From assembly GCA_030272155.1 (NCBI GenBank), contig CP126195.1, forward strand, positions 682,001-746,000: a stretch of DNA of 64,000 nt, written 5' to 3'. Source of the stretch: Tetradesmus obliquus. Lineage: Eukaryota > Chlorophyta > Chlorophyceae > Sphaeropleales > Scenedesmaceae. Every line of letters begins with the position of its first letter. The first letter of the stretch is position 1. A model generated the notes under the pieces. That model worked only from the letters and a program-made list of their open reading frames with translations. It made no database searches and was not told where the DNA came from. Positions 8,459 to 32,933 of this stretch are shown piece after piece. Made by a program: the position numbers and the translations under genes.

Positions 8459-8494
<36 letters not shown>

Positions 8495-10138: not shown

Positions 10139-10171
<33 letters not shown>

Positions 10172-11538: not shown

Positions 11539-14500
11539 TCACATGCCGGACGCTGCTGCCCTGGCTATGCTGGCCATGCGCTCGTGCCGGCGCACCGCCT
11601 CAGCAGCAACAGCATCCAGCCCCGCACCCCGCCTGCTGGTGCCGCCCCACCGAGGGGCTGCTACAGCCTCATGCAGCTGCCCTGCTGCTGCTACGATGCG
11701 CACACAGGCTGCAGCCACCCTGCGGCGGCGTGGGCTGATGCTCTGCGGGTGCTGCACCATGCTCATGCCCACTGCCAGCACTTGATCCTGCAAGCAGCAG
11801 CAGACATGACACAGCAAAGCATGAATTGAGTTTGATATGGGACCACAGACCACGATTAGTGTCGAGAGTGAAGCGGCGTGTGTTGAAATCAGTGGTTCTA
11901 ATCTACTAGCAGTTGCTGGTTTGCCAGCACACGCTCAGCAGAAACGTTCCATTTTCAGCTGCACAGCGCAGAGAGGAGTAGCGTGTCAGGTGCCTGATGA
12001 CCAAACCGCCAAGATGAGCAGGCACGCTGCTCAGGCAGGCACGTGCCGATCTCCACCCAACACAAAGCATGTGAGCATCTAACACTGCAGCACACCTCCC
12101 ATACTCAACAGCAACAGCACCTGCAGACTTGCAAGCTGCTGCTGACAAACCCGCTCCCCTCAGTCCTCACCTGCAGTGCAACCAGCGCCTTTGCAGCAGG
12201 CCAAGTGCCCTGCCCTGCTCCTCCTCCCCCAGCTGCTGCAGCACCTCTAGATTCATTGTGGGTGCGTTTCATACCCCGCAGCAACAGCGCCTGCATTCCT
12301 GCAGGCTGCTGCCTCACAATGATCCACTCCCCCAGCTCTTACCTGCAGCGCCTTGCACGTCCCTACTCACTGAGCCTCCAAACACAGTGCAGTACAACAC
12401 ATGCCCACCATGCATACTCAGCATGAAGCCAACTTATCACCCCAGCCCCCACCTGCAGTGCCGCCAGCGCCTTGGCAGCAGGCCACGTGCCCTGCCCTGC
12501 TCCCCCAGCAGCAGCAGCACCTCCAGATTCATTGTGGGCACACACATTTCAAAGGCAACAGCAACAGCGCCTGCAATCCTGCAAGCTGCTCCCTTACAAT
12601 GATCCAGTTCCCCATCTCTCACCTGCAGTGCCGCCAGCGCCTTGCACATCCCTACTCACTGACCCTCCAAACACAGTGCAGTGCAGCTCAAACACAACAT
12701 GCATACTCAACATAAAGCCAACTTATCACCCCAGCCCTCACCTGCAGTGCCGCCAGCGCCTTGGCAGCAGGCCACGTGCCCTGCCCTGCTCCCCCAGCTG
12801 CAGCAGCAGCAGCAGCAATCTCTCCAGGCTCCACCACCGGAGCAGTAGCCAGCAGGAAAGCCAAGCTGTGCTCACACGCAGTATACACTGCCTCGCAGAG
12901 TCGCGCGCAATATTCTGAGCAGCCGCCAATTCCACCGCCACCCGTCAGGCCGCCTGCAGCATCAGCTGCTGCAGCAGCAGCAGCAGCAGCACGTGGGCTG
13001 GCGCCGCCGCCGCCTCCACCAGCAGCAGAGAAGGGCCCTGCTGTGATCAAACCCCCTGCAGGGCTGCTGGGCTTGCTGCCAGCACCTGCTGTCGGGCTAG
13101 CTGCTGCTGCTGCTGCTGTGGATGGCATGGCCGGCACTGCTGCTGCTGTGGATGGGGCTGCGAGGTTGTTGGCGCCGCCGGCGGAGCAGAGCTTGAACCA
13201 GCCGTCGCTGGCCTCTAGGCCTGAGGGGAGCTTGGCCAGGCGGCGCTCAAAGGGGCTGAAGGGGGCGCATCGCACACGCAGCGACCTGCAGAGACACGAC
13301 AAATACACATCGCGAAAGCAGGGTTGGCAGCAGGGCGGCAGGTGCAGGCAGTGGCGCTGCAGGCAATGTGTGCTGTGTGTTGGCAGAAACATGGCAGTCA
13401 CTTAATTTGCCACTGACTACATAAGCATGCACCTGCCGCATATCCCTGCCTCAGCGGCAGAACAGTCCCCTCCAAAACAGCAACGCAGCTGATCGCCGAG
13501 CTTACTGCCCCCACCTGTCTAGTGATGGGGCAGCAACAAACAATGTTCGTACATAAACAACGGCAGTAGCGCAGCTGAACAGCCAGCACGCACTGTACGC
13601 ACCTGTTCAATGATGAAGCAGTAATGCTCCACCAGCCTGGCAGCAGCAGCTGACATCTGATGTAGACAACAGCAGCAGTGCAGTAAAACAGCCAACCCAA
13701 CCCAACCCACCCACCTGTCTAGGGATGGAGCAGCAACAAACTCCACCAGCCTTGCAGCAGCAGCCCTAAAAGTAGCCAGCGACCCCGGCCGCTGCAGCTG
13801 CCAAACCCCAATGTGAGGCACCATAAACCCTAACAGGTACATCGCCCGCTCAGCTTCCAGCAGATTCGCCAGCGTCAGCAGCAGCGGCGCATCCCGGCTG
13901 TACCCTAAACCCCCAGCCCCGGACCCTAAACCGCTGCTGCCGCCAAACCCTGACTCTGGACCCCAGGCGAGGGTCAAAACCCCATGCGGCTGACTTGGCA
14001 GCTGCCCTTGCCCTAAACTGTTGAGGCCAGCGCCTTGTGTGCTGCTGCTGCTGCTTCTGCCGCAGCTCTGCAGCTGCACTGCGAGCAGCAGCCGCGGCTC
14101 AGCAGCGACCAGCAGCTGCATTGCAATGTCTTTGACTGCTGTGCTCCTGCTCAGCTGCTGCAGCAGCGTACTGAGCAGGCCAAGCAGCAGGCACCACTGC
14201 TGATGCCTAGGGGACCAAATGCATCCTGCACCTGCACTAGCTGCTGCAGCAGCAGCAGCAGAGCCAGCTGGCAGGCCCCCTGGTGCTGCTGGCAAACCTT
14301 GGATCGTCTGCACACTGCTGCCGCTGCTGCTGCTGCTGCTGCCACTAAGTGACATGTAAGCCCCAAGTGTGCTTAGTGACACCTCCATGAGGGGTGACAG
14401 CTCATAGCCGCCAAACCCTGCTGCTGAGCCATAAACCCCACCACCTGGGCCCACAAACCCTAATGAGGCCACATCCAGCAGCCCTGTGGCCTGCTGTGTA

Positions 14501-15782
14501 TGCATAATCTGCCGGCAGTAAGCCACTAGCACAGGCAGTAACCCTTGCTGCCACAGCTGCAGAGACCCCTCAGGTGCCTGAGCCACTGACAGAGCCAGCT
14601 CAAGCACTGAAATGTCCGTTACTGCTGCACCCGCAGCAGCGGCAGCAGCGGCGGCTGCCGCGCCGCGCTCTGCTGCTGCCGCTGCAGCTGCCGTGGCACT
14701 GCTGCTGCTGCCAGCAGCTGCTGCTGCTGCTCTGTTACTGGCATCCACGCCATTTGGCTGTGCCGCAGCAATGCGTCCGACTGGTGGTGCTGCTGCATCA
14801 AGTGCTGCTGCAGTTGTTACAAAGCCGCTGTTACCTGCCCTGGCAGCAGCAGCAGCAAGCATCGGCACAAGAGCCAGCTGCTGTGACACTGCAGCCAGCC
14901 ATGTTGCAGGTGGCAGCTGGTGCTGCAGTATCTCAATCAGCAGCTGTAGCATGGCAGCAGCAAAAGCCTGTCGGGATGCGCTGACACCTCCAGCAGGACC
15001 CTGCTCTCCCTGCTGCTGCTGCTGCTGGTCAACTGCCATAGCACATGCTTTGCACAGCACTGGCAGCAGATCCAGCAGTGCTGCTTCCAGCTCTAAAAGC
15101 TCAGCTGGAGTCATGCCCTCCCCTGCTGCTGCTGCTGCGGCTGCTGATTGCTGCTTTGCTGCTGCAGGGGAGTTGCTGCTGCTGCTGCCCTTCCTTGCTG
15201 CTGCTGCTGCTGCCATCAGCATCTGACCTGGCAGCGCCTGCAGCATTAGCAGCAGGCTAGTGCTCAGGCACTCCACTACCTCCACATCTGCTGCCACTGC
15301 ACCACTCACTGCCCCTGCTGCTGCTGCTGCTGCTGCTTCTGTAAGGCTGTCACCGCCCCTGCCCCTCAGCCAACGGCTCAGCAGCCCTGTACACTTTGCA
15401 CACGCAGCCAGTGCAGCAGCATCCGCACTCTGACTGCTGCTGCTGCTGCTGCCAAATGCCCCAGCTGCTGCTGGCAGCGCCTTAACACCTCCTCCTGCTG
15501 CTGCTGCGCCAATCTGCTGCTGCTGCTGATTCAGCGCTCGAGCCATCAGCACGGGACGTCCCACAGGCCTGCCGCCACCTACTGCTGCTGCTGCTGCCGC
15601 GTCACTCGCTGCCGCCACTTTCCACACACGTACTGACAGCAGCATAGAGCGAGCTGCCAGCAGCAGTGCGGTACTGCTGGCATGCCCAATGAAGGGCAGG
15701 CCCCAGGGCACAGCTAGCAGTCTGGCTGCTGGGCCGCTAGAGAGGTGGCAGGTCTCCTGCAGCGCCTTGTCAACAGCCTGGT

Positions 15783-15821
<39 letters not shown>

Positions 15822-16788
15822 CGGTCAGCTGTCAGAGATATGCTGTGTGGCATGTGTGATGAAGGGCAGGCCCCAGGGCACAGCTAACAGCCTGGTTGCT
15901 GGGCCGCTGGACAGGTGGCAGGTCTCTTGCAGAAGCTTGTCTACAGCCTGGTAGCGAGGCAAGTATGCGGCAGCAGCAGGGCCACAACAATGTATTTGAT
16001 CAGTCAACATCCCACCACGCACCTGTAGGCTGCTCCTCGGCAGCTGCCTTGACTATAAACTGACATGCCACATTGCATGCATCCGGTACTGCTGTACCAT
16101 AGTACTGTACCATAGTCAAAACACAAAACACCAACGATATCACTGCACCACGCACCTGCAGGCTGCTGCTCAGCAGCTCCCGGGCGGTGGCGCTGCTCAT
16201 CAGCTCCTGCCTTGCTGGAGCATACCTGACAGCAGCAGCAGCAGCAGCAGCAGCGGCGGCGACGGTGGAAACAACTGTTTTACTTGCCGGAAGTCAGCCA
16301 GGACGCAGTACAGCCCTGCCGCAGTCCTGCCTTTGCAGCACATCAGACTACAGCATAACTCCAGCAGCGACAGCTGTGGCCACTGCATGCACTGCGGCGG
16401 CAGCAATTGCTGGCACAGTAGCTGCGGTTGCATAATGCCTGCATCTTCCTGCATCCTCAGCACGCTGCGGCAAACAAACGCAAGTCTGCAACAACAGGCT
16501 CATTAGCCCCTGCTGTGTCTCTGACACTTGCCTCACACTCATATGCAGTCTCCTTATCATTGCCGATCCGACGCGCACCTGCTCATGCTTGCGAAGAGGC
16601 TTGTTGCCGCCTGCAGCAGCGCAAGCCGTGCATGCGCCAGCGCTGCCGCTCCGCTCACATCGTCCAGCGTGACAGCCAGAGCAAGGGCACCCTCACATTC
16701 GTCAATGGTGAAAGGCCCGAGCAGCCGCATCAGGCGTGAGGAGTCAAACAGGAACTGCCTGCAAGGGTGGTTGTTGGGACATCAACAT

Positions 16789-16820
<32 letters not shown>

Positions 16821-17151
16821 GCAGCAGTGAATTAGTGCGCAGCTGGTGTAATCAGATGCATTGCTGTCACCAGTAACGCCAGCGTGCCCTCAAACTCGTC
16901 AACGAGCAAGGGGCCTAGCAGCTGCACCAGACGCGAGCAGTCAAACAGGAATTGCCTGCACGCGGAAAAACAGAAAACAGAAAACACACCTGCCGTACTG
17001 CGTCTCTCCCGCACCCCAGCTCCAAGGGGTGACAGCTGCATAGCCAAGCAGCACTTCTCCAAAAGGCCGGCCATACAGCGCATCAACCAGCACGCTGCCG
17101 CGCACACCGCCGCCATCAGCGCCGCCGTCAGTGTCCATCTCCTCGTCATCT

Positions 17152-17201
<50 letters not shown>

Positions 17202-17386: not shown

Positions 17387-17424
<38 letters not shown>

Positions 17425-20400
17425 GATGGATAGATAGGTGCTGCTATGGCAATCTACCAATCTTCGTGAGGCCTCTCACCTTCATCAGCAGCAGCGATGC
17501 CGCGGGGTGCATCCGGGTCAGCCAAGATGCGACAGGCGGCCCTCAAGTCTGCCAGGCTGTACTCCCCGGCTGCTGCTGCTGCCAGCAGCGGCTGCACTTC
17601 TGTGCGCAGCTGCGCTGCTATTGACAGTGCATCAGCAGTGAGGGTGGGTGGGCCCCAGGCGCCCGTTATGGCTGATGCGCCCAGCTGCAGATACGTCACC
17701 TGCACAAACAAAGCAGCAACAAATGCAGCGGCACGTGCAGCAGTGCAAAGGGCAGGGCAAGGCAAGGCATGTTTGTGATCGCCAGTTGCATGTGAGGCGC
17801 ACTTGTAAAGCAGTAGAACCAGTTGCTGCTGCCACTGACAGCGCATCAGCAGTGAGGGCAGGCAGGGCCCCCACAGGCCCCTGTGGTGGCTGATGTGCCG
17901 AGCTGGAGATACGTCACCTGGAAAAGCATACAGCAGCGATTAGTGCAGTGGCGCAGCGCGGGCAGGGCAACTCAGGTTCACTATGTATGTTTGCAGTTAC
18001 AGAGAAAGTCGAATTGGTTAAATTGGAATTGGGATTTCCATTCACCACTGCTACCGACAGCGCGTCGGCAGTGAGGGAGGGCGGCCCATAGGCCCCTGTG
18101 AAGGCTGATGCGCCCAGCTGAAGGTGGTCACCTGCAAAAGAGGCAGGTTGGGATTGTACCATAATGGTTAGAAGCCTGCTGTAAGGCAAGGACCGGATAA
18201 AAATTTACAGCCTCTTTCATGCTAAGCCAGACCTTGCTGGAGAAAAAGAAACATGCGATTTTGAAATGTGCAGCATCTGTGATAAGCACTACCAATGGGT
18301 GAATTGCGGTGCAACGTTTATTTATTTATTTTTGTATTAGAAATCACTCTATGCAGTTCTGACCTTTTGCGGGAAAGCCACCAGCTGACCTGTGAAAAGT
18401 AGGTTTAACAATCCTCCCACCCCTTACCTGCAGCATGCGCGCCAGCTGGTCCATCAGCGGCTGCTGCAGCCCCAGCTGGGAAGCTCCCCCCAGCAGCTTG
18501 CTCAGCTCCAGCACGCCCACTGACGACAGCAGCTCAGCATAGCCCTTGGACTGCTGCTGCTGCTGCTGTTCAGCGCTGGCGCTGCTGCTGTTGGCCTGCA
18601 GGACATGCCAGAACAAGTTTGGATGATAACAATGGTTGCATTGTATGCATGTGTGAGGTCTGTGACGTGGCGCATGCGGATGGTAGGTGGCTTGCGGGAC
18701 GTCTCTGAGCACCGAGCCCTTGAAACAGTTCAGGCTGCAGTCCGTGAACTGCCTCACAGGAAGTGCGGCACACCCCAGTGTTACAGCCGCCACCGCTGCT
18801 GCTGCTGCTGCTGTAGCTGCTACTACAGCAGCCATTCCAGACCGCCATCTCGTGTGCGTGTGTCGATGCATGCAGGGTACGCACCTGCACTGACAGCAGC
18901 TCCAGCAGCAGGCTGTGCAGCGCCTAGTGCACACAGCTACCAACCACTGGCTGCAGCTACGTTGACAATCACAGCAAACATGAAACTGCTTGCAGCAGGC
19001 GCAAGGACCTGCACGACAGCAGCTGCAGCAGCAGGATACAACAACTTCATCTGCTGCTGCTGCTCTTGCCGAAACTAGCCACCCTACAAGCATGTGGCGT
19101 TTAAACAAGGCGCACTGACCTGCACCGACAGCAGCTCCAGCAGCAGGATGTGCAGGCCGCAGGCGTGCACCTGCAGCCGCCACGCCGCCGCCTCACACTC
19201 CGCCACATCCTGCAGCTCAGCAGAGGCTGCTGGCAGGCTGGCTGCGGTGGGCAGGCAGGCCTGCGCATTTGATTATAGAGCAGCGAAAGCAGCAGCAAAG
19301 ATGCAGAAACATCAGCCGGCCAAAAAGATGAGAAGAAGTCTCTCCTGCTTGGGGGAGGGGGCTGGCAGGCCTGCAGCAAACAGCACACAGTGCACACACG
19401 CACAAGGATTATTATCAGGGAGTATGTTGCATGCTGTCCTTCATTAGCTTTCAGGTTTGGGGTTGACGAGTTAAACAGCGCTGTCCAAGCCTATGAGTAC
19501 CTTGACGGCCTTCCAGCTTTCTGTTTGCGGTCTCAGCAGCTCCACGGCGCTATGTGCTGCGCCCTGGCACTCCCACAGCATAGCCAGCAGAAGCGTCAAA
19601 TACAACCAATGAAAGCACACGCCAATGCACAAAAACACGCACATCATCATCAAATTGCTCACCTTGAAGGCCTTCCAAAAGTCTGGCTGCCCTCTCAGCA
19701 GCTCCACCGCGCCGTGTGCGGCGCCCTGGCACTCCCACAGCGTAGCCAGCAGCCGCAGCAGCGCCAAACACATTCAACGCAAGACCATACTAACACACAG
19801 ACATACGCACTGAACTACGAGAGTTGCTCATGAGCAGGTGATCACCTTGAATGCCTTCCAAAAGTCTGGCTGCCCCCTCAGCAGCTCCACGGCACCGTGT
19901 GCCGCCCCCTGGCACTCCCACAGCGCAGCCAGCAGCCACAGTGTAGCCAGCAGCCACAGCAGCGCCAAACAAAATCAACGCAAGAACATACCAACACACA
20001 GAGATTCGCACTGAACTATGAGAGTTGCTCACCTTGAATGCCTTCCAACAGTCTGTTTGCGCTCTCAGCAGCTCCAACGCGCCGTGTGCAGCCCCCTGGC
20101 ACTCCCACAGTGTAGCCAGCAGCCGCAGCAGCGCCGAACGCGGTCATTTGAAACCCACACCAATGCACATAGATACGCAAAGAACACTTGAAATTGCTCG
20201 CCTTGAATGCCTTCCAAAAGTCTGGTTGTGCTCTCAGCAGCTCCACGGCACCATGTGCCGCCCCCTGGCACTCCCACAGTGTAGCCAGCAGCCGCAGCAG
20301 CGCCGCCAGCAGCGCCGGCTGGCTGGCCAGCAGCGCAGGGGCCTGGCGCAGCAGCTGCCACATGCCGTCAAGCGCTGAAAATGGCGGCTCGGTGTCTTTT

Positions 20401-21324
20401 GCGTTTGCCCCTTTGCTGCTCTTGCCTGCAGGGGTGGTTGTATCTGCTGCTGCTGTTGAGGTGTCGGTTGGCAGTTTGAGGGATGATGGGAAGCAGAGGG
20501 TATCCAGGATCTCCGAATGCGACCTGCAGCAGCAACAGCATTGACCAACAGAGCATGATTTGGTGCATGCAAGCTGCCAGAACAGCAGGCAGGCAGCAGA
20601 CATCATGTGCAAAAGGCTACTGACGCCTGCAGCATGAACTGATATCAACTGCTTGCCTGAGACCAGCAGTTGCTTTGCAGCAGCACATAGTGGTGATATC
20701 AAGCAGCTGCAATGTGTGTACGGGCGATCAGCACTGTCTGTTCGTTTGCACGCCAGTGCATGTGTTATGTTATGACTGTTATAACAATGCCTGTCGCGCA
20801 CCGTGCGCCCGCCTCCAGCAGCGTCATGCACCTCATGGCCCACTCAGGGTACTGCTGCGCAACCTGCAGCAGCAGCAGCAGCAGCAGCATGAAGATGATG
20901 CGCAAAGCACTTGTAACAACACACCAACCACGCACAAAGCTTGCCCATGCATGCTCCTATCTGCCATGTCCCATAAACGCCAATATGTGACGCAACCACG
21001 CCCCCAACCGAACGTGCCAAAACGTTGTGGCACATATGTTCCGCAGAAACGTGACAAAGAGTATGTTGCCCATGCGCAGTTTGGGCCACTTATGCAGCAC
21101 CACGCCAGACTGGCTGTCACATCATGCTTCTGCCGCTGTCGCGTTCCATCTGCCACTGCCAGCCGACTAGGATGTGGGAATCAGATGTTGGCTGCATTCG
21201 ACATACCTGTGGCTCGAATGGCCGCAGCAGTGCGCCGCGCAGGTCAGGCACGGCCGCCAGCAGCGCTGCAAACAGCCCTGAGGGCCGCCACCAGCCACCA
21301 GCACCACCTGCATGCGTTGCGGCC

Positions 21325-21371
<47 letters not shown>

Positions 21372-24300
21372 GCAGCCATATGTCGCACGTCGCATGCATT
21401 GCAGGCGACATGCATAAACATGGGTGGCTTGCAGGACAAAATGTGCTCAACGACGGCCGCATGCTGTTTGTAATCTTCATGCCACTGCTGGTGACAACAT
21501 ACATCCATTGAGGAGCAGGAAGCAGAACAGCACCTGCCAGGCATCACTTCAGCAGAAACCTTGTGATACTATTCACATTCAAATTCGCTGCGTCGTCAGA
21601 GCTCATACGTCTGCACTGCACACCTCTGCCGCCCAATCCCAAGCCAGTAGCAGCAGCAGAGTGCAGCCCCCTTAGGTAGGGCTGAGCAGGGTTGAGCCCA
21701 CCCTGCACAGGCCCAGCTAATGCACCCAGCCCTGCAGGAGTGCCGCCACTGCCCGCCACCGCTCGGCTGGGGAGTGCTGCTGTAGCCTAACAAACAACAC
21801 ATGACAAACAGCCACTACAAGCAGTGCTTGTTTATCTAAGCATAACACGCACTGCTCACCTCTGCCGCCAAGTCCAAGGCCAGTAGCAGCAGCAGAGTGC
21901 AGCCCCCTTAGGTAGGGCTGAGCAGGGTTGAGCCCACCCTGCACAGGCCCAGCCAAAGCACCCAGCCCTGCTGGGGTGCCGCCACTGCCCGGCACTGCCG
22001 GCCCACCACCGCCCGGCTGGGGAGTGCTGCTGTAGCCGAACCCGCTGGGGCCTGCTGCTGTTGATGGGCCGGCCTGCAAAGTAAGATTTTAGCAGCGCAG
22101 TGTATGTGGATGTGGCCGTTTTGAACATGTCAGTTGGCGCTGACTTGCTTGTCAGACAGCAACAGGCACATGCATGTGGCCACCTCGCTTGCTGTTGCAG
22201 CTGCGCAGGGCATACTGTGGCACAAACGTGACAAGTGCTGCTGTAGCCGAAGCCGCTGGGGCTTGCTGCTGTGGATGGGCCGGCCTGCAAAGTGCAGTTT
22301 GCAAGGTGGTTAAAAGGCCGTTACAACATGTTCAATGTTTTACACAACATGCGTCAAGGCTAATTTAGAAACTTTCCATTGACAAAAGCAGCTGTCGGCA
22401 TGTGCCCATCCGCATGCTGTTGCAGCTTCGCACAGCAGTAACAGGCTGACGGCATGCTGGCAGTTGTTGCAAAACAGCGCAGCTGACTTTGCAAGGTTTC
22501 TACCACTGCAGGGCTCACCTGGAGAATGGCAAAGGCGTTCAGCGCCTCCAGTGCCAGCAGCGGCAGGTGCGTGGCGTAGGGGTAGGTGGCGTAGCTTGCG
22601 ATGATGGCTGCTGGGCTCAAGCCACCACCCGGAGGGTCCTGAAAAGAAAAAAAAACATGCAGCAGCAGTGCAGATAGATGCTTAGGATGCTCGTCACATC
22701 GAGTCAACATTGGTATAGCCGACGATGATGGCTGCTGGGCGCAAGCCACCGCCCCGGGGGTCCTGCAGCAGCACAACAGCAGCACACACACAGCGGCGCA
22801 CAAAGGATGCTTTAGGTGCTGGTCTGCTGAGTTGCTCTGGCATAGCTCGCAATGATGGCTGCTGGGCTTCAGCCGCCACCCGGGGGTCCTGTAAAACCAG
22901 AAAAGGCATGCACGAGCAGCACCGAAGGGAGGCTTAGGATGCTAAACAATGAACTCAATGTTTTGCTATGATTGTGAGGTACCTGCCTATGTATGCACAC
23001 ATCACAGCACCACATGAGCAACATAACAACATTCAAATGCGTCCTTGGATCGCTGTGGCGTTCACGCTGCTGACTCACCGCGCCCCAGTACTGCTGCAGC
23101 GGCATTTCAGGCGACAGGTGGCACAGCAATACAATCACCGCAGGCTACAAACCAATATAAAAAATCAACTCACCGCGCCCCAACACTGCTGCAGCGGCAT
23201 CTCTGGTGACAGGTGGCACAGCGCGCCCTGGTACAGCACTACAACTACAGCAGGCTACAAAACGATTTGAGGATACATCAAACTCACTGCGCCCCAGTAC
23301 TGCTGCAGCGGCATTTCAGGCGACAGGTGGCACAGCGCATCCTAGTACAGCACTACACTTAGCGCAGGCTACAACACAATACGATAATACATTTAACTCA
23401 CCGCGCCCCAGTACTGCTGCAGCGGCATCTCCGGTGACAGGTGGCACAGCGCACCCAGCAGCACCGGCACCAGCAGCAGCAGCCCCTCCGCCAGTTCACT
23501 GCCTGCATGGCAGCACCAACACAGGCTGGTAAGACGAAACCGAGGACTTTGCTGGGAGATTAGCATGCGCTTCCTGCACAGATGTTGGTTTTGTGTTCAG
23601 CAGGACCAAGTGCAGGCACAACGTTCTGCAGCAGCCCATCACAGAAGCCATACCTGCTGGCTGGGTTGTGTCTACTTTTGTTTGTTTGCAAATTTCAGCA
23701 CTGGCAGGACGAACTGAACATACAATGTTCTGCAGTAGCCCAGCACAAAAGACCATACCTGCAGCCAGCAGCGCGCTGCTGCCGGCCTGCTGCTCCGCCA
23801 TGTCTCGCAGCGCATCAGCGGGAGGTGGCAGCGCCGCTGACAGGTAGCCGTGGCCTGCAGGACAAAACATTGTCATCAGGCAAGTTTAGGGGTTTGAGTC
23901 AGTAAGAGCATGAAACAGGGAGTCCTGGCGTGCGGCGACATCAGTGCAATCATCATTTAGGCTGCAGTTTCAGCCGGCCAGCAGCGTAGCAACATAACAA
24001 GCATGCATGCGTAGAACACACCCTCCCACCTGCTGTCGCCAGGTCATGCACCACCTTGGCAGCCAGTACCGTCACCAGCACTCCGCCAGGCGCCCCCGCT
24101 GCTTTCGGCCCCGCTGCTCCCGGCTGCGCCACAGCACCAGCCACCAGTGCTCCCCGCACCACACCCAAAGCAGATGCAGCCAGGCTCATGCGTGCTGCTG
24201 CACAGCTGAAGGGCAGCCAGGGCATAGCGCCCAGAACCCTATGTAACACAAAGCTGACAAGGCCAGGCACTAAGCCCCAGGTGCACTGCTGATCCAGCAG

Positions 24301-26747
24301 TGAGGATGTGAGGCTGAGCACTGCTGCAGTGAGCGGGTAGGACTTTGCAGGAACCTCCAGGTTGTCCTGCAAGGCCTGCAGGAAAAGTAACCGGCGGCAG
24401 ACATGGGGGCAAACGTTGGAAAAGATGTGAGCAGCAGCAGCGCGCCTGCGCTGTGCGGCAGGCAGGACAAAAGCGCAGCATGGTTGTCTGGAACAAAACT
24501 GGAGCGGACACGAAGGAAACCGTTGTTACATATGTTACAGGTATTCCAGGTGTCTGCATTGTGTAAAACATGACTCCTGCCGCACCTGCAGCGTCTCAAG
24601 CGCCCGCCAGTCCTCCGCAGCTTCAGCAGCAACAAAAAGGCAGCGACGACTCCAACACCACGCCCACAACACCCCCAAACGATCCAGGACAGCAGCCAGC
24701 TTTTCAACTACTGCAGCCATCACGCACAAAAAATGTCGTGCCGCCCTTTCATGTACAGATCATAACACCACCAAGCACTGCCAAGCCAAAGCAGTCATGT
24801 AGTCACTTGTTTGGTAAACAAACCACTTTTCAGGCTCTCTTCCCGCACCTGCAGCGTCTCCAGCGTCCGCCAGTCCTCAACAGCTTCCGCAGCCAGCTGC
24901 TGCTGCTGCTGCCGCTGCACCCAGCCCGCCAGAGCCTCCAGCGGCACCAGCGGCAGCGGCTCGTTACAATTCGAATTCAAACTGCCCGCAAACAGCTGGC
25001 AGGAGCCCAGTGCTGCCAGCACACGCCCTGGCTGGCAGCCTGCTGCTGCAGATGCAGCCAGCAGGCAATCTGCTAGCGCTTCCAGCACCTGCTGGCCAAA
25101 TTCAAACTGGCTGCTTTTCCCGCCATTTCCTGCAGTCGCTGCGCTGGCGGTTGCAGCGAGCGCTGGCAGCACATTGAGTGAGGCGATAATAACATCCAGC
25201 CAGTCCATCTTTTGGCTGCCTGCGTAGTCAATGCGGACTTTCATCAGGGGCTTGGCGAGCAAGGGCTCTGACTTGAGGAGTGCTGCTAGCAGCTTCAAGA
25301 TGAGGCGCAGGTCCTGCAAGGAAATGCAAGGGCAAGTGAGGCACAGGAAGCAGTCATGTTATGTTGCAGCTATGTCTTCATCAGGAGCTTGGCCAGCAGA
25401 GGTTCTGACTTGAGGAGTGCTGCTAGCAGCTTCAAGATGAGGCGCAGGTCCTGCAAGGAAATGCAAGGGCAAGTGAGGCACAGGAAGCAGTCATGTTGTG
25501 TTGCAGCTCCTGTTTCATCAGGGGCTTGGTGAGCAGGGGTCCTTGGGCTTGAGCAGCGCAGCCAGCAGCATCATGATGACCTCAAACGCAAGGGCAAGTG
25601 AGGTGCAACAAATGGCAAGTTCTTTTTTTGCAAAGCACGGCAGGCAGCATGACTAACATCGTGATAGAGGAATTGACACAACATGGCAGAAAACATACAG
25701 AACAGAGGATACATAATATATGACGGGACTAGCAACAAAGATTGCGGCATCCAGTGCAATCTACCCACACGCCTGCCAGTACTCGCTGCCGCCACTGCCT
25801 GCCGTGCCACATTCACCACATGTTAGAAAACACAACAGGCAGCAAAGGCGCACGCCCGCAGTGCAGTATGTTTGCACACACCTGCCAGTACTGGCTGCCA
25901 GCACTAAGACAAGAGCACGACCGACACACCAACCATACACAAGATGTTAAAGCACTCAGTGCAGGCCTGTCCACTCACCTGCCAGTACTCGCTGCCGGCC
26001 ACTGCCTGCCTGGCCACATTCGCCGCATGACAGACAGCATAACATGCAGCAGAAGCGCAAGCCGTGCAGTGCAGTTTTTCGGAGACGCACACCTGCCAGT
26101 ACTGGCTGCCAGAACTAGGACCAGAGCATGACAGACACACCAAACAAACACAAGATGTAAAAGCATTCGGTGCAGGCCTGCCCGCGCACCTGCCAATGCT
26201 CACTGCCAGCCACTGCCTGCCGTGCCACATTCACCGCATGCAGCTGCTGCAGGCAGTGCGCCGCACGCGCCAGCAGCAGCACCGGCCCAATGCCCTCCTC
26301 TGCTTGCACATCCCAGGCCACAAGGAAAGAGCCTTGGTCTGCTGCTGCTGCTGCTGGTGCTCCGCCGTCTGAAGCTGCTGCTGTTGCTGCTGCTGACTTG
26401 ACAAACTCTGGGAGAGGATACACCTTTCCGCGGATGCCCTGCAGCAGACAAGCATACTGAGGTGTCAGGCTATCTTCGCTGTGGGGTGACGCAGCCAAAA
26501 GCAGCGGCAACAGCCCTGCAGCCACCTGCTCTGCAAGTCAAGTCCCTTGGCAGAAGCAAGCTACACAACTCGCAGATCTAGCGGCTGCGCAGCATACGCA
26601 CCTGTGCACCAGCGCAAGCATCACCTATACTATTCTGTGCTCGTCTACATTTGCACCACAAGCCACGCACCTGTGGCAGGTTGCTGCCCTGCACCTCGGG
26701 CGCCTTGGGCCATGGCAGCTCCTGCATCAGCAGCGCCTCATCACCCT

Positions 26748-26795
<48 letters not shown>

Positions 26796-29700
26796 GCAGC
26801 GGCAGCAGCAGCAGCAGCAGCGACACAGCAGCAAGATCTTGTCACAATGCTTGCTGCCGATGGTGGCTTTGCTGCTGGGGAAGCCACCATGTGCTGCTCT
26901 GAGGTCGCCTGGGCTGCCTGTTGTGCATCAGCAGTATATTGTGTTGTAGTTTTGTGCGGCGGCAGTATATCTGTTGCCCATGAACACGCCAGGGCCTTGC
27001 AGGCAGCAAAGGCGTGGTGACATCCAACCGCCCTGTCACTGGCAGGGCAGACACATACAATGATGCCATGTATCATCCGCAGCCAGCAGAGTAACAATCA
27101 GGTGCCTTGTCTGGTCTGACTTTTGAACTGCTGCACTGCACACGCAGCTCAAATTTGCTCGCAGACCACCACCCGACAGCAATAGCAGCACTTGTGTAAG
27201 GGGCTTTCCACTCACCTGCAGCAGCACGCCTGCGCTGCCTGCCTCATACGCAACCGCCAGACTTGGCTTATTGCAGATGTAGCTATAAGCTGCATCGCCA
27301 GCCTCCCTGCCTTGGCACAGGCCAGTGGTCAGCTGCAGGAAGGGCCCGGGGACTGCAGGGAACATGGCGGCTGCCTCATCGAGAAAGTGGCGCAGCGGGC
27401 GGGTGGCGTCCAGGGACTCGTCCCACACCTGCTGCGCCAGCTGCGGGGAGTCTGCAGGGAGTAAAGCAAGTTTTGCAGAGCAAAAACAGGGCATGAAAGG
27501 GTTGTGTTGTTCCATAAGCAGGCACATGCAGAAGCAACAGCAGCCGCAGGGTGGTGGTCAGTGTCAGGAAAGGCCCGGGGCATGCAGGGAACATGGCGGC
27601 TGCCTCATCCAGGAAATGGCGCAGCGGGCGGGTGGCGTCCTGGGACTCGTCCCACACCTGCTGCGCCAGCTGCGGGCAGTCTGCAGGTCAAAGAAAGTAG
27701 CATTGCAATGGGGAGAGAAGGCCGCTGGAAAGGAGTTTGTCTGATGAATCAAGAACGGTAGCAGCAGCATGTGCAAGGCAAGCAGGCGACATAGCCCTAC
27801 AAGCTGTGCCAGCGAAGCCGTTTGTTTTTGTGTTTCCTTGCTTTCTCACCTGCCACCACAGCTGCCCACAGCTCCAGCAGCTGACTCAGCACCGTCCCCG
27901 GCAGCCGCCAGGGGCTCAGGTCAAAGGCGGCACTCCACATTACACAATGTCATTAAAATAATAAAGTTCCTCCCCTCCCCCACCAGCCACCACAGCCGCC
28001 CACAGCTCCAGCAGCTGACTCAGCACCTGCCCCGGCAGCCTCCAGGGGCTCAGGTCAAAGGCAGCAGCCATCCGGCACTATCATGCACTTCTTCATCATT
28101 GTCATCGGTTCTATGAGCGATTGTGGATTTTTTCCACAGAAACCTCTTGCAACCTCTTTGATATGCCCCACCTGCCACCACAGCCGCCCACAGTTCCAGC
28201 AGCTGACTCAGCACCTGCCCCGGCAGCCTCCAGGGACTCAGGTCAAAGGCAGCAGCCATGAGGCATAAGCCTTGCAGCAGCAGGCCCCTGAACAGACCCC
28301 CATACCGGCGTGCCTATAATCTGCAGGAACTACGCACCACACACGGCCAGCTGCACCACAACATGACAAAAGCCCCATCTGGCATCCCGCCGCTATTTGT
28401 TTTCAATTTCTTGCTGTCTCACCTGCCACCACCGCCGCCCATAGCTCCAGCAGCTGCGTCAGCACCTGCTCCGGCAGCAAGCAAGCCAACTGCACCCACA
28501 ATATACATAAGGCCCATCTGGCACCCCACAGCAAGTAATATTATTACAATTATAAACGTGAGTTTTTATGTGTACGCACCTGCCACCACAGCCGCCCAGA
28601 GCTCCAGCAGCTGACTCAGCACCTGCCCAGGCAGCCTCCACGGGCTCAGGTCAAAGGCAGCAGCCATGAGGCACAAGCCTTGCAGCAGCAGGCCCCTGAA
28701 CAGGCCCCCTGCCAGCATGCCTATATCAGCTGCAGGAACTATGCACTGCACACAGACAGCTGCACCACAACTCAACACAAAAGCCCCATCTGGCACCCCG
28801 CCCCAAGGTGTTTCTGGTTTTCTTGTTATTCTTACCTGCCACCACCGCCGCCCACAGCTTCAGCAGCTGCGTCAGCACCTGCCCGGGCAGCCAGCAAGCC
28901 GACTGCACCACAATATACATAAGGCCCATCTGGCACCCCACAGCAAGCATTACTATCATTGTTAATATAAGGTGATTTTGTATGTGCCCTCACCTGCCAC
29001 CACAGCCGCCCAGAGCTCCAGCAGCTGCGTCAGCACTGTCCCAGGCAGCCTCCAGGGACTCAGGTCAAAGGCAGCAGCCATGAGGCACAGCCCCTGCAGC
29101 AGCAGGCCCCTGAACAGGCCGCCTGCCAGCGTGACGGGGGCCAGCTCCTCTTGTTGTAATGGGGCTGCGATGGCTGCAAAGCCGCCTGCCTGCAGCGCCA
29201 TTTGCTGGATGCTCTCCGAGATGGCATCTGCACAGAAGCGCAGCGCAAACAATGGATGAGTGGGTTGAGGACTGAGGATTTTTGGGGTGAGGATAGGTAT
29301 CGGCTTGAGCAGAAGCAGCGCCATCTGCTGAATGCTCTCAGAGATGGCATCTGCATGAATAGAGGCAAGAATTGGATGTGTCGGATGACAGTCAACACGG
29401 GCGAGAACAAGAGTGTGCTGAAGCAGAGGCAGCGCCATCTGCTGAATGCTCTGCAAGATGGCATCTGCAACAAAGCAAGCACTGGATGTGTGGATCAAAC
29501 CCTAATCAGAAGTACTGACCCACCTGCAGCTCCCCTGTAGCTGGCCAGCAGCCAGTTGCACGCATACACCGACAGCAGCCACCACAACTTGCGTTCTTGG
29601 TTGTACTGGTTGTACGCATACACCGACAGCAACCGAAACAACAAATTTTCAGATCGCCTACACGAGTTGGCTTAAACCCAACAAAACAAGGGCAATAGCA

Positions 29701-32700
29701 CGTGTTTGAAAATCAATCGAAACCTGCCTGCGGCTCCCCTGTGGCTGGCCAGCAGCTGGTTGTACGCATACACCGACAGCAGCGCCAGCGCACTGCCAGG
29801 CACGTGCTGCCGCCAGCCCATTAGTGCAGCCTCACATATCAGTCAACTGTTGACCGCTGCCACTGCAGGCATGTGCACCTAGCCCTGTGGCTAATATCAC
29901 CGACTTGTGTCACTAATACACCCAGCGAAATTTGGTTGAAATCTGATTACCTGCGGCGCCTCTGTAGCTAGCCAGCAGCTGGTTGTACGCATACACCGAC
30001 AGCAGCGCCAGCACACTGCCAGGCACGTGCTGCCGCCAGCCCATTAGTGCTGCCTCAGCGCTGCGCCACTGCCTAAAAGCACACACGCCGCGGGGCAGTG
30101 CCCCGCCGCTCTGCTGCACCGAGGCTGCGGCCCCTGCCAGGCGCTGCAGCAGCTGCCCTGGCTTCAGTGCTGCCAGCAGCAGCGCACACGCCTGCATGGT
30201 GTAGTTGTCAGCAGGATGAAAGCGAGTGAGTGACTGGATGCAGACAGGACTGCTTGCACTGAGGTTGCGGCTCCTGCCAGGCGCTGCAGCAGCTGCCCTG
30301 GCTTCAGCGCCGCCAGCAGCAACGCACACGCCTGCAGGGTGCATGCCATGTGCCAGCAGGTGCATGCCATGTGCCAGCAGCAACGCACACGCCTGCAGGG
30401 TGCATGCCATGTGCCAGCAGGTGCATCAGTAGGTTGGCGATAATCTTAGACCTAAGCTGTGTCCTATTGACATTGGTGAAGTACAAAACACGTGCATCGC
30501 CGACACTGTCAACACGGTCATGCTTGCACTGCTGCTGTCTCCTGCACCAAAGCACCCTAGCTCAGCTTGCTGCATGCTTACAGTCCCGCGCACCCACCAG
30601 AGCCTCTCCCAGCTGCTGCATGTTGGCTGCCTGGCTGTCTCCCGCAGCCCAGCCGCCGCGCTGCTGCTGCTGCTGCAGCCCGCCACCTGCACCACCTCCT
30701 GCAAGCGTTCCTGCAAGCATGCCTGCGCCGCCGCCGGGCCCAGCCACAAACACAGCCTCTCCCAGCAGCTGCAGCAGCTGCAGCAGCCTCTCCTCACTGC
30801 ACTCTGGCCAGCGCATTGCCTGAAGATCCTGCAAGAGGATCTTGGCCTGTGCTGCATCCTCTGCTGCTGCTTCGCCTGCTGCGTCGCCTGCTGCTGCTGA
30901 TGATGTGGCAAGAGTCGCTAGGGCGTGGCAGGCTGGGGAGGTGGCTGGGTCAGGGCCGCAGTAAAGCTGAGTCAGCAGGCACAGCAGCTCGCAGCGCTCG
31001 TGCAGCTGGTGCAGGTGCAGCCGCTGCTCCAGGTCTGCTGGCTTCACCTGCAAGCAAGGAATCAAAATATGTTATGCAGCATTAAGACGAGTTTGGTGGG
31101 CAAGGATGTGCGTCCGTGTTTCATGGTGTCTAGTCTCAAGCCATTCGTCTCGATGCAGCTGAACCACGGATGGTGCCGGGAGCCTGAAGCAACCACTCCT
31201 CCCTCCCAATACCTGCTGTGAGAAAAGTGTGGGGCACATGCAGGTGCAGGCGCCGCTCCCGGTCTGCTGGCTTCACCTGCGTTTGAGGCAGCGCACCACA
31301 CACGACACACATATACAGTGCTGGTGGTGGGCAGGCGCGTGCCTTTGTGTTGTATGCTGTGCTGCTGCCCGCAGATCTCCCTCAACCAACCCCCCATGTG
31401 CATCGCTTGCTTGCTCATTCGAATCTTAATGCAAAGTTGATGGCACATAGCACTGCAGAGGCTGAAGTCCCTGCACCCGATAGCAGCCTGTTTTTGCACT
31501 CACCATGTGACGCAGCTCTGCTGCTGGCTGCATATGCTTGCTGTGCAGCTATCATCCCACACTGCAATGCAGCAGCAAGCACATCTCCAGCCATCTGCAT
31601 CCTCACTCACCACATGACACAGCTCTGCTGCTGGCTGCACCGCCACCAGCGCTCCAGCTGCGGCACCAGCGCTACTTCCAGCGCCTCCGCCGCTGCCGCC
31701 GCCAGCTGCTGCTGCTGCTGCTGCTGCTGTGCTGCGTGGCTTGAGCAGCGCTGCCAGGCTGTCTGCTGCCTTGCCCTCCCAGCCTGCCTCCAGCAGCCTT
31801 TTTAGAAGATCCCTGCAGGGCTGCGAGGCATCTGCTGCCACATCCACTGCAGGCAGCAGCCGCAGCAGCAGCAGCAGGTGTGCATCGTCAGAGTCATTAC
31901 GAAGGAAACAAGTGCGTGGCGTTTGCTGTTGCTGCTGCATGTTGTGGTGTCACTGAAGTGTGGCGTGCACTGCTGGCGTGTACATGCAGACGCTGCGGAC
32001 AGTTGCCCCAGTGCTGATGAACCCTGTGGTATAAAGATACCTTTACATCTCAGCAGGCAGCAGGCCCGTGACATACAGCGCATCCCTGCAGCTGCTGCAC
32101 CAAACACTACCCATTATGTAAGTGACAGCCATAGACCTTACTCACTTGCGGTCATGACGATGAACTGCTGGCACTTTGCCAGGTAGATGCGCTCCTCTGC
32201 ATAGTAGTCAGCCACGCCCTGCACCACATCCAACGGCAGCACTGCTTGCCCCGGGCTGCTGCTGGGCTTAGCTGCTGTTGATGCTGCTGCAGCTGGTGCT
32301 ACGCCTGTGCCTGCTGCTGGTGCTGGCAGCGCCAGCGGTGCTGCTGCTGCAGGAGCTGCTGCTGCGGGTGCTGCTGCTGGAGGCGGTATGCTGATGTCAT
32401 TGTCCTTCAGCCAGCGCTTGAGCAGCAGATGGCACTGCAGCTCATCCAAGTTCTGCAATACACAATATTTTTTTAAATGATCAACAATCATACTACACGT
32501 GGTGACAGGTACGATGCAGGAGGTGAAATACTGCTGGAGAGCAGTGACAGCAGCAGTAGCAGCAGTTTGCATTTGAATGTTGAGCACCCGTCGGCGATCA
32601 GGCACTATCGACGCGTCAGAGTAATTTGATCGTTAACAAACCGTCGAGCAAACTCACCAGCAGTTGGCTGAGCTCTGCTGTGGCGCTTGCCAGGTGCTTG

Positions 32701-32933
32701 TCGATGCCGATTCCACGCTTGGCGCCCCAGGCCGGTGCCTTATGCGCTCCTCCGCTATTAACAGCATTTGCTGACTTTTCGTTGGGCCCAGAGAACTTGC
32801 TGAGGCCTTCCAGCAGCCAGCCAAAGTTCAAGTTGAGCAGCTCAGTCAGCCCAGAGAGGCTGGATCTGTTTGCTGCCTGCAGCTGCTGGCAGACCTGCTT
32901 GAAGGGCAGCCAGTAAAGCTCTGAGGTATCCAT
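11539..32933 (-). CDS. NUP188: Nucleoporin NUP188 homologue (28 exons)
   Basis: Large scaffold nucleoporin of the inner ring of the nuclear pore. Exons: 32658-32933, 32146-32452, 31611-31846, 30598-31047, 29951-30191, 28994-29227, 27216-27451, 26671-26745, 26190-26438, 24849-25313, 24030-24375, 23759-23854, 23402-23502, 22519-22638, 21860-22073, 21207-21307, 20802-20863, 20202-20523, 19120-19260, 18428-18595, 17480-17699, 16990-17149, 16579-16758, 16284-16464, 16156-16206, 13715-15777, 12742-13285, 11539-11787. Phases close over 8088 nt (2695 aa). Family hallmarks: ELYWLPFKQVCQQLQAANR at the N-terminus, DYYAEERIYLAKC, WDESLDATRPLRHFLDEAAA, YSYICNKPSLAVAYE and PLPEFVK. It is longer than plant NUP188 (about 1950 aa, from memory), mainly because exon 13715-15777 is full of Ala/Ser/Gln/Gly runs. 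Minor exon errors are likely. Confidence 0.85.
12166..12810 (-). repeat. Exon-edge array in NUP188 (5 copies, 3' edge AAKALAALQ)
   Basis: The exon end encoding GQGTWPAAKALAALQ with a GTGAG-type donor is used at 12742 and repeated at about 12618, 12448, 12339 and 12166. Two copies are truncated. The intervening intron segments (GCAACAGCGCCTGC..., ACTCACTGA...CAAACACAGTGC) are repeated as well. Confidence 0.85.
13488..13790 (-). repeat. Exon-edge duplications in NUP188 (3' edge of the 2-kb exon)
   Basis: The edge encoding AAAARLVEFVAAPSLDR at 13715-13765 has partial copies at about 13610-13660 (AAAARLVEHYCFIIEQ) and 13505-13545 (the CCTAGACAGGTGGG part). Both copies keep a GT donor. Confidence 0.65.
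13819..14475 (-). repeat. Cluster of TTAGGG (telomere-like) motifs inside NUP188 coding sequence
   Basis: On the coding strand TTAGGG occurs five times in this stretch, at about 13829, 13904, 13923, 14012 and 14458. Each reads as Leu-Gly (TTA GGG) in frame, several extended to GGTTTAGGG or TTAGGGTTT. One more, GGTTTAGGGTTTG, lies in the dehydrogenase at about 8790. They are interspersed, not tandem. Confidence 0.6.
15700..15960 (-). repeat. Exon-edge duplication, 5' edge of the 2-kb NUP188 exon, plus (CTG)n
   Basis: The start of the long exon (DKALQETCHLSSGPAARLLA, 15670-15777) is duplicated at about 15840-15960 (DKLLQETCHLSSGPATRLLA). Between them a (CTG)n tract on the coding strand (15783-15822) abuts the acceptor at 15778. 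Confidence 0.85.
16680..16960 (-). repeat. Duplicated 5' exon edge in NUP188 (FLFDxSRL pair)
   Basis: Copies at 16871-16955 (QFLFDCSRLVQLLGPLLVDE) and 16680-16758 (QFLFDSSRLMRLLGPFTIDE). Only the second continues into a long exon with a donor in the required phase, so it is used in the model. The first ends at a donor in phase 0, which fits neither neighbouring exon. A (CTG)n tract at 16798-16827 lies upstream of the second acceptor. Confidence 0.75.
17149..17422. repeat. CAG/CTG tracts around NUP188 exon 22
   Basis: A tract at 17154-17200 reads CTG on the coding strand and ends in CTGCAG, directly before exon 22. A second tract at 17393-17422 has the opposite orientation (CAG on the coding strand) inside the same intron, an exception to the orientation rule. 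Confidence 0.85.
17630..18135 (-). repeat. Exon-edge array in NUP188 (3 copies, LQLGASA..TADALS)
   Basis: The 5' edge encoding QLGASAITGAWGPPTLTADA (17630-17699) recurs at about 17845-17915 and 18050-18132 with acceptor-like AG ends. The 17.6-kb copy is the one that extends into the full exon. Confidence 0.8.
18880..19150 (-). repeat. Exon-edge array in NUP188 (3 copies, LLLELLSVQ)
   Basis: The exon end encoding LLLELLSVQ with a GTCAGTG/GTGCGT donor at 19120-19150 is repeated at about 19005-19040 and 18885-18925. Confidence 0.7.
19503..20310 (-). repeat. Exon-edge array in NUP188 (5 copies, about 100-115 bp of exon each)
   Basis: Five copies of the edge encoding ATLWECQGAAHGAVELLRAQ and PDFWKAFK lie at about 19503-19592, 19670-19766, 19852-19966, 20033-20135 and 20202-20310. 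Four carry a GT donor (GTGAGC, GTGATC, GTGAGC, GTACTC). The full-length exon at 20202 carries GC. Linking intron fragments with AACACACAGA...CGCA are repeated too. Confidence 0.9.
21320..21369 (-). repeat. (CTG)n tract upstream of NUP188 exon 16
   Basis: A pure CTG run on the coding strand is followed by CTGGGGCCGCAACGCATGCAG and the exon 16 acceptor at 21308. A similar shorter run at 20864-20890 precedes exon 17. Confidence 0.85.
21653..22290 (-). repeat. Exon-edge array in NUP188 (Gly/Pro-rich exon, 2-3 copies)
   Basis: The Gly-rich exon at 21860-22073 is nearly repeated at 21653-21790, from the middle of the exon through its donor. The start (AGPSTAASPSGFGYSST) is repeated again at about 22228-22286. 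Copies therefore exist of both edges of one exon. Confidence 0.85.
22519..22895 (-). repeat. Exon-edge array in NUP188 (3 copies, GGGLSPAAII)
   Basis: The acceptor and first codons of exon 14 (DPPGGGLSPAAIIASYA) at 22590-22638 recur at about 22715-22762 and 22845-22890 with the same CAG acceptor and DPRG/DPRV starts. Confidence 0.85.
23075..23502 (-). repeat. Exon-edge array in NUP188 (4 copies, SPEMPLQQYWGAV)
   Basis: Four copies of the exon 13 end (CHLSPEMPLQQYWGAV plus GTGAG donor) lie at about 23076-23130, 23170-23225, 23283-23340 and 23398-23460, spaced about 110-115 bp. A conserved intron piece (CTACA...CAGGCTACAA) sits between copies. Confidence 0.9.
24570..25570 (-). repeat. Edge copies on both sides of NUP188 exon 10
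   Basis: The 3' edge (VEDWRTLETLQ plus GTGCGG) at 24849 is repeated at about 24578-24620. The 5' edge (DLRLILKLLAALLKSEPLLA) at 25240-25313 is repeated at about 25380-25452 and in degenerate form at 25510-25585. Both ends of a single exon have been amplified outward. Confidence 0.85.
25765..26240 (-). repeat. Exon-edge array in NUP188 (about 5 copies, NVARQAVAGSEYWQ)
   Basis: The exon 9 end (NVARQAVAGSEHWQ plus GTGCGC) at 26190 recurs at about 25975-26030 and 25768-25820. Shorter pieces carrying only the SQYWQ/GTGTG part lie at about 26085 and 25878. Intron segments with CAAGATGTTAAAGCA are co-repeated. Confidence 0.8.
26746..26822 (-). repeat. (CTG)n tract upstream of NUP188 exon 8
   Basis: On the coding strand an interrupted CTG run of about 75 nt ends in CTGCAG, directly before exon 8 (25 codons, GDEALLMQELPWPKAPEVQG start). 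It fills the pyrimidine-tract position. Confidence 0.9.
27331..27690 (-). repeat. Exon-edge duplication, 5' edge of NUP188 exon 7
   Basis: The start of exon 7 (PQLAQQVWDESLDATRPLRH, about 120 bp from the acceptor at 27451) is repeated at 27555-27681 with 90% or so visible identity. The upstream copy then diverges in the intron. Confidence 0.9.
27850..29130 (-). repeat. Exon-edge array in NUP188 (7 copies, LLELWAAVVAG)
   Basis: Seven copies of the exon 6 end (SPWRLPG.VL.QLLELWAAVVA plus GT donor) start at about 27850, 27982, 28168, 28421, 28578, 28836 and 28994. Some extend further into the exon (GLCLMAAAFDL, GGLFRGLLL). Intron filler such as AAAGCCCCATCTGGCA...CC is also repeated. Every copy retains a GT donor. 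Only the 28994 copy is attached to the exon's acceptor. Confidence 0.9.
29180..29480 (-). repeat. Exon-edge array, 5' edge of NUP188 exon 6 (3 copies)
   Basis: The acceptor plus DAISESIQQMAL start at 29190-29227 recurs at about 29312-29350 and 29428-29465. Each copy has a T-rich GCAG acceptor. Together with the 7-copy array, both edges of exon 6 are amplified. Confidence 0.85.
29530..30430 (-). repeat. Edge copies on both sides of NUP188 exon 5
   Basis: The 3' edge (VLALLSVYAYNQLLASY plus donor) of exon 5 is repeated at about 29720-29840 and 29530-29640. The 5' edge (ACALLLAALKPGQLLQRLAG) is repeated at about 30262-30335. Beyond it lies a short tandem of a roughly 40-bp unit containing GCATGCCATGTGCCAGCAG at 30336-30425. 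Confidence 0.85.
31245..31640 (-). repeat. Edge copies around NUP188 exons 3 and 4
   Basis: The exon 4 start (VKPADLEQRLHLH) is copied at about 31240-31280. The exon 3 end (QPAAELCHV plus GTGAG) at 31611-31640 is copied at 31500-31535 as QPAAELRHM plus GTGAG. Confidence 0.75.

Follow-up and report, generated by a model that had tools for sequence, protein, structure and literature searches.

Introns of Tetradesmus obliquus carry tandem arrays of diverged exon edges with consensus splice sites

A 2007 study by Zhuo et al. is said, by its title, to concern introns arising from tandem arrays in human genes, and its likeness to the present case lies in tandem arrays being tied to introns. In the potato RdRp gene, a new intron arose from a tandem genomic duplication that crosses an intron-exon boundary, as outlined in PMC4974935, and for Drosophila PMC2891723 outlines intron gain through exon duplication involving a proto-splice site. 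Donor duplication has been connected with stwintrons in Lipomyces, where, in the account given by PMC7138796, duplications of 4-7 nt were proposed and two-step splicing was shown. In human paralogs, internal tandem repeats alter gene structure, and these changes are ascribed to minisatellite expansion, according to the summary of PMC2812944. Here, we describe arrays in which an exon edge, including its splice site, recurs as diverged copies (decoys) within the adjoining intron.

The analysed stretch of DNA (hereafter the window; 64,000 nt) comprises bases 682001-746000 of contig C5 in a genome of 104.66 Mb and 17 contigs, and was combined with 19 sampled 10-kb regions for the array survey. Genes were predicted with a home-made finder based on a hidden Markov model, for which the window and these 19 regions served as training data; its consensus sequences were CAG/GTGAG for donors and CTGCAG/G for acceptors (slash, junction). 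Gene models outside the window are its predictions; within the window, its NUP188 and TIC21 pieces were replaced with curated models, and the counts omit three small genes predicted on the plus strand at 34-38 kb. One further, repeat-rich region (L016) was left out of gene finding and edge counts. After removal of 46 edges with short or triplet-repeat sequence, 368 of 414 edges from 54 genes and 207 introns were scored. Decoy junctions initially fell on AG at 59 of 66 acceptor decoys and on GT at 43 of 56 donor decoys (plus 5 on GC); for most later tests they were shifted by up to 4 nt to the closest GT or AG. Codon tests used 91 of the 123 real-decoy pairs and 64 decoy-decoy pairs, with a minimum of 21 ungapped nt per pair. 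Names given to the ADH-, LHC- and ZIP-like genes in the window were assigned from the translations and are presumptive.

The NUP188-like gene was curated by hand with the aid of the T. obliquus protein P0121, by which one exon was located. Its 2641-aa frame closes using solely the edges attached to exon bodies (Table 1), as the initial annotation had held in stating that one set of edges restores the complete reading frame. P0121 aligned with it from end to end at 94.1% identity with indels of at most 10 residues. Among the 14 NUP188 homologs listed, P0121-P0123 are from Tetradesmus obliquus and P0124 is from Scenedesmus sp. NREL 46B-D3. P0123, which stems from another T. obliquus annotation and a contig of another length, showed 2 single-step residue differences from our model at 1232 positions compared, which places the window in T. 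obliquus or a very close relative, and contains insertions recognised by eye as reading like decoys of two NUP188 exons; these insertions appear to be decoys misannotated as exons.

Table 1. Gene models and exon-edge copies in the window (positions are those of the window)
Gene	Feature	Position	Strand	Remark
NUP188-like	gene	11539..32933	-	27 exons, 2641 aa, one terminal stop
NUP188-like	three decoys, 3' edge of exon 12742-13285	12171-12224, 12453-12507, 12623-12644	-	
NUP188-like	two decoys, 3' edge of exon 13715-15777	13515..13652	-	
NUP188-like	decoy, 5' edge of exon 13715-15777	15893..15947	-	
NUP188-like	decoy, 5' edge of exon 16579-16758	16908..16955	-	
NUP188-like	two decoys, 5' edge of exon 17480-17699	17865..18131	-	
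NUP188-like	two decoys, 3' edge of exon 19120-19260	18885..19038	-	
NUP188-like	four decoys, 3' edge of exon 20202-20523	19501..20087	-	real donor GC (GCGAGC); all four downstream decoys GT, two of them GTGAGC
NUP188-like	decoy, 3' edge of exon 21860-22073	21624..21678	-	
NUP188-like	decoy, 5' edge of exon 21860-22073	22234..22284	-	
NUP188-like	two decoys, 5' edge of exon 22519-22638	22711..22888	-	
NUP188-like	three decoys, 3' edge of exon 23402-23502	23079..23341	-	
NUP188-like	decoy, 3' edge of exon 24849-25313	24586..24630	-	
NUP188-like	two decoys, 5' edge of exon 24849-25313	25396..25589	-	
NUP188-like	two decoys, 3' edge of exon 26190-26438	25771..26033	-	
NUP188-like	decoy, 5' edge of exon 27216-27451	27626..27680	-	
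NUP188-like	six decoys, 3' edge of exon 28994-29227	27850..28890	-	at 27850, 27984, 28172, 28423, 28580, 28836
NUP188-like	two decoys, 5' edge of exon 28994-29227	29315..29464	-	
NUP188-like	two decoys, 3' edge of exon 29951-30191	29524..29778	-	
NUP188-like	copy, 5' edge of exon 29951-30191	30250..30341	-	pairs with 30111-30201, 91%; in addition to the 39 counted copies
NUP188-like	decoy, 5' edge of exon 30598-31047	31239..31276	-	
TIC21	four decoys, 5' edge of exon 55744-55932	56010..56410	-	
TIC21	two decoys, 3' edge of exon 56864-57013	56661..56821	-	
gene 1632-3292	decoys of exon 2478-2772	3' edge 2362-2393, 5' edge 2841-2895	-	
ADH-like (8174-10514)	decoy, 5' edge of exon 8683-9131	9209..9263	-	

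The NUP188-like gene holds 39 decoys in 15 of its 26 introns, derived from 19 exon edges (10 donor, 9 acceptor). Together with TIC21 (6) and two other genes (3), the window contains 48 such copies with 74-100% identity over 22-55 nt. The initial annotation had reported arrays in all six intron-containing genes; this holds for four (1632-3292, ADH-like, NUP188 and TIC21), while none were scored in the other predicted intron-containing genes of the window. Its statement that both edges of one exon can be copied applies to the NUP188 exons 28994-29227, 24849-25313, 21860-22073 and 13715-15777 and, by way of the additional 5' copy, to exon 29951-30191, while the 3' edge copy of the last TIC21 exon was seen by eye only.

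For TIC21, two copies lying in frame had been linked into the predicted gene as mini-exons. This model was rejected, as these are absent from P0001, P0002, P0004 and P0009. A TIC21 ORF of a relative (P0072) carries, as seen by eye, a copy of its own head approximately 108 nt upstream in another frame, the sole such case among 120 listed proteins scanned; therefore, at least one array also exists outside this assembly. This bears on the possibility that haplotype or read errors were stacked by the assembly as false tandem copies, which had been dismissed on the grounds that copies vary. That concern is answered in part: copies and their spacers differ from each other, arrays lie on many contigs and traces of decoys occur in other data sets (P0123 and P0072). 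We therefore regard an assembly artefact as extremely unlikely.

Across the sample, 68 of 368 scored exon edges (31 donor, 37 acceptor) had 1-6 diverged copies in the adjoining intron, giving 123 decoys in 55 of 207 introns, 13 of which held both donor and acceptor kinds. All controls were empty, with no matches in antisense orientation, none to the far edge of the same exon (0/118) and none in introns of other genes; as regards exon edges, the recurrence across unrelated genes expected of introner or transposon insertions was thus absent. Exon-edge arrays, with tandem copies of both donor and acceptor edges, are thus real features of these introns, as first described. The expected lengthening of introns is also seen, with a median of 524 nt for introns with copies compared with 252 nt for those without. 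Self-BLAST of the window returned 96 pairs of direct repeats, offset by 61-2169 nt, together with a single inverted pair, which joins triplet-repeat tracts. Direct repeats occurred in 14 of 20 sampled 10-kb regions (18.5% of bases), L003 having a lone pair 3.5 kb apart, and inverted pairs only in L016 (34) and L017 (1). Below 400 nt, repeat offsets are most frequent at 120-140 and rise again at 220-260. Direct repeats with offsets of 102-673 nt were further found at three RNA polymerase second-subunit genes on other contigs (identified by Pfam; 4 loci, two overlapping). L016 (G000:C14:1500001-1510000) is unlike the other 19 regions, with a GC content of 0.494, 87% repeats and 110 direct and 34 inverted pairs; it supplies 8.7 of the 36.9 kb of repeat-covered sequence in the 20 regions and is perhaps a centromere or transposon cluster.

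With L016 excluded and offsets limited to less than 2500, arrays were present in 12 of 19 regions. The 109 merged arrays comprised 71 spanning exon and intron, 2 confined to introns, 3 confined to exons, 23 outside predicted genes and 10 mixed cases, and covered 24.9% of intronic, 13.0% of exonic and 14.2% of remaining bases. Conserved strong splice sites were found in 87 of the 109. Minisatellites or VNTRs unrelated to gene structure were rejected based on these two counts (71/109 spanning, 87/109 with strong sites). Random placement of units predicts a ratio of spanning to intron-only arrays of 1.3:1, compared with 71:2 observed (P 2e-15; P 6e-4 for whole array spans). This ratio also speaks against plain neutral tandem duplication, by which random segments would be duplicated, exon copies purged and junction-spanning copies left to survive and decay with neither renewal nor selection, although faster decay of intron-only arrays could contribute to it. 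The repeats outside predicted genes (14.2% of bases) are in line with such neutral duplication. Conserved strong splice sites were present in 16 of the 23 arrays outside predicted genes and in 4 of 23 under a reversed PWM, a lenient control because in non-genic DNA it matches about 5x less often than the true PWM does; many of these arrays may belong to unpredicted genes.

Copies start at the splice site and reach at least 24 nt into the exon (median 66 nt), the longest running into neighbouring units. Inner breakpoints all lie within 4 nt of each other in 16 of 32 arrays with at least two decoys and differ in the other 16. Similarity is largely limited to the exon part: ungapped identity drops almost to the random level no more than 6-8 nt past the junction, and the 45 nt past the splice site show an identity of 0.64 over all pairs compared with 0.53 for random introns. 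In the same decoy-decoy alignments, exon parts were 90.1% and spacers 76.7% identical, with the exon part higher in 20 of 22. The slower evolution of exon parts is not what neutral duplication predicts, while the spacers that are at least 0.75 identical in about a fifth of pairs (21/122 and 19/93) agree with it; the remaining pairs may be too old to retain spacer similarity. Similarity covered the full exon in 10 of 123 decoys, and a few decoys may therefore be exon duplications. Only 5 of 291 repeat pairs showed at least 93% identity over at least 85% of the unit, and the intron half is mostly unrecognisable. The suggestion of ongoing copying of junction-spanning segments is thus not supported in the form given, and as judged from these alignments most arrays are something other than plain young tandem duplications. 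With just these 5 young full-unit pairs to examine, microhomology at duplication ends gave no result. The sharp stop at the junction could alternatively reflect copying of exon sequence alone, from spliced RNA or cDNA into introns, so that similarity was junction-limited from the outset. Regular array spacing and full-unit similarity in some pairs argue against this, as does the retention of GT or AG where a cDNA would continue into the next exon, and we consider it very unlikely.

The splice sites of decoys are strong, as had been claimed from the window. PWM scores of at least 2.5 were reached by 42 of 56 donor copies (26 of 31 real donors) and 37 of 67 acceptor copies (24 of 37 real acceptors), compared with 4% of random intron positions. 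After adjustment of junctions, the base composition of 52 GT donor decoys equals that of real donors, and the 65 AG acceptor decoys are near real ones but slightly weaker. The donor consensus is intact in decoys while +4 and +6 vary. Partner splice sites at the inner ends of decoys were at background level (acceptor 7% vs 7%, donor 0% vs 1%). Spacing was flat modulo 3, revealing no frame rule, and is as expected for neutral duplication; in-frame read-through was open in 11 of 68 cases, 4 stops occurred in 91 pairs and 9 of 12 anchored indels shift the frame (without anchoring, 102/124, most of them due to loose alignment ends). Since there are neither partner sites nor a frame or spacing rule, and stops and frameshifts occur, ordinary alternative exons are unlikely. 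Together with radical replacements, this led us to reject decoys as translated, mutually exclusive exons. The splicing machinery apparently passes over near-perfect decoys. A broader functional role, in which decoys serve as rare alternative edges, in recursive or nested splicing or as poison sites under selection, would fit the intact donors, a decoy-decoy pN/pS of 0.36, the annotation of two decoys as exons in P0123 and the distance of at least 88 nt between adjacent copies, which is close to the 5th percentile of intron length (89 nt; spacing based on an older NUP188 model). The absent partner sites, the flat spacing, the mostly closed frames and the radical nature of decoy-only replacements are at odds with it, and such a role seems rather unlikely.

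Sequence differences are concentrated at third codon positions, with 5.5/5.0/15.8% by codon position for real-decoy and 6.7/5.7/15.0% for decoy-decoy pairs. For real-decoy pairs, pS was 0.185 and pN 0.047, resulting in a pN/pS of 0.25 (95% CI 0.20-0.33), while decoy-decoy pairs gave 0.36 (0.28-0.54). Values for pairs with dissimilar spacers were 0.27 (real-decoy) and 0.32 (decoy-decoy), and for pairs with similar spacers 0.21 (21 real-decoy) and 0.64 (15 decoy-decoy). The last value is compatible with neutral duplication; the overall 0.25 lies below the approximately 0.5 that we estimate for a neutral copy of a constrained exon, and taken together with the excess of spanning arrays and the slowly evolving exon parts this makes plain neutral duplication unlikely. 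Decoy replacements are nearly as radical as random ones (BLOSUM -0.48 vs -0.52), compared with -0.06 in strain and +0.36 in species proteins. Of 34 decoy replacements in NUP188, 11 introduce a residue also present in a homolog (8.8% expected, P 1e-4), and for six of these 11 the residue is present in P0121; counting distinct replacements, 8 of 31 match (P 5e-3). The other 23 have a BLOSUM of -0.87 and hit invariant sites in 8 of 23 cases, compared with 177 of 457 overall. TIC21 behaves in the opposite way with regard to conservation, as none of its 6 replacements falls at an invariant site vs 25 of 90 codons.

Our reading of these differences is that decoys may be neutral now and carry an exon block from functional alleles unlike the present exon. 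As a rough estimate with omega near 0.1, functional edges would account for approximately 15% synonymous divergence and decoys for about 3% neutral change. A single lineage in which both mutate at an equal rate would not yield this split, and exchange between diverged haplotypes would therefore be its simplest source. Weak selection on decoys or a lower decoy mutation rate may apply instead; an omega of about 0.16 for exons and 0.35 for decoys fits the counts equally but fails on the radical replacements. A signal of recombination mosaics, with a homoplasy of 12 vs 2.2 expected in 7 arrays, was at first seen and not upheld: with 10 arrays and codon-position rates, homoplasy was 3 vs 2.2 expected, a value reached by 36 of 100 simulations.

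Considering the observed arrays, their density, the exon-limited similarity, consensus sites, missing partners, synonymous-rich differences and homolog residues, we propose that the arrays are untranslated decoys that were founded by junction-spanning duplication, are renewed by exchange and represent snapshots of older or other exon alleles. We hold the chances of this explanation to be close to even. The founder would be a tandem duplication whose breakpoints lie in the exon, at a median distance of 66 nt from the junction, and in the neighbouring intron. The resulting unit, mostly about 90-160 nt long, would be re-amplified within the intron, and spacers would later drift past recognition. 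Splicing would continue at the exon body's own edge, probably via exon definition. The real edge would still be chosen, since the far end of a decoy lacks the matching splice site; a donor decoy with no preceding acceptor, or an acceptor decoy with no following donor, should be invisible if exons are recognised as units. Functional edges, those of other alleles included, would occasionally renew the exon block and splice consensus of decoys through unequal exchange or gene conversion, and decoys would therefore be snapshots of older or other alleles with some slight neutral decay added. The mosaic test (3 vs 2.2) gave renewal no support, and selection on decoys could also explain their splice consensus and low pN. 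A bolder version, in which the splice junction bounds the renewing process and exon edges act as master templates rewriting splice-competent decoys genome-wide, is in our estimate doubtful.

The initial annotation had further suggested that such copying lets splice sites shift and provides a route of intron gain. Neither was seen in NUP188, where P0121 shares the junctions of our model and shows no new intron. In intron 0 of L013 (164 nt, gene-finder model) the head of the next exon is copied exactly at the donor, a layout as expected for intron gain by tandem duplication, making this a single candidate. Other repeats in the window include a 183-nt unit that recurs approximately 10 times outside predicted genes and in which strong splice-like sites are conserved (49968-51786) and tandem repeats with CAG tracts within a predicted plus-strand ORF (54887-55495). 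Pure CAG/CTG triplet runs are common in exons and introns (e.g. 15783-15820, 17152-17201 and 21326-21369), and many triplet runs encode Ala, Gln, Ser or Leu runs. The abundance of CAG tracts suggests a FEN1/rad27-like mutator as a possible candidate.

With decoys in about a quarter of sampled introns (55/207), donors nearly at real PWM strength and acceptors somewhat weaker, splice-site choice, including exon vs intron definition and proximity rules, would be testable in a natural system. The arrays represent one route of intron lengthening and raw material for intron gain, and account for annotation errors such as the decoys called exons in P0123. If decoys are allele snapshots, exon alleles could be dated inside a single genome. 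Should the master-template version be true, introns would preserve exon alleles locally as a fossil record and would constitute a massive natural test of spliceosome choice among near-identical sites.

The literature searched, which covers few subscription papers, yielded no title or abstract opening on multi-copy exon-edge arrays. Duplication across an exon-intron boundary (PMC4974935) and intron gain by exon duplication (PMC2891723) are already known from the cited accounts; what appears new, going by these searches, is that roughly one in four sampled introns contains multi-copy arrays whose similarity stops at the splice junction. As in the potato gene, the duplication crosses an exon-intron boundary and carries splice signals, but potato, as outlined there, represents one case that led to a new intron, whereas the present arrays are multi-copy, occur in 55 of 207 introns and are mostly similar in their exon part only (PMC4974935). 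The Drosophila case, in its outline, shares the derivation of splice sites from local tandem duplication of coding sequence; there, however, the duplicate becomes an intron inside a former exon, while here copies sit in existing introns (PMC2891723). Lipomyces resembles our arrays, as far as the cited account goes, in having an additional donor beside the real one within an intron, with proposed duplications of 4-7 nt compared with at least 24 nt of exon in the arrays, which are described here from DNA sequence (PMC7138796). In human paralogs, as summarised there, gene structure is likewise altered by tandem repeats, yet through minisatellite expansion, whereas the units described here are mostly 90-160 nt long and end at splice junctions (PMC2812944).
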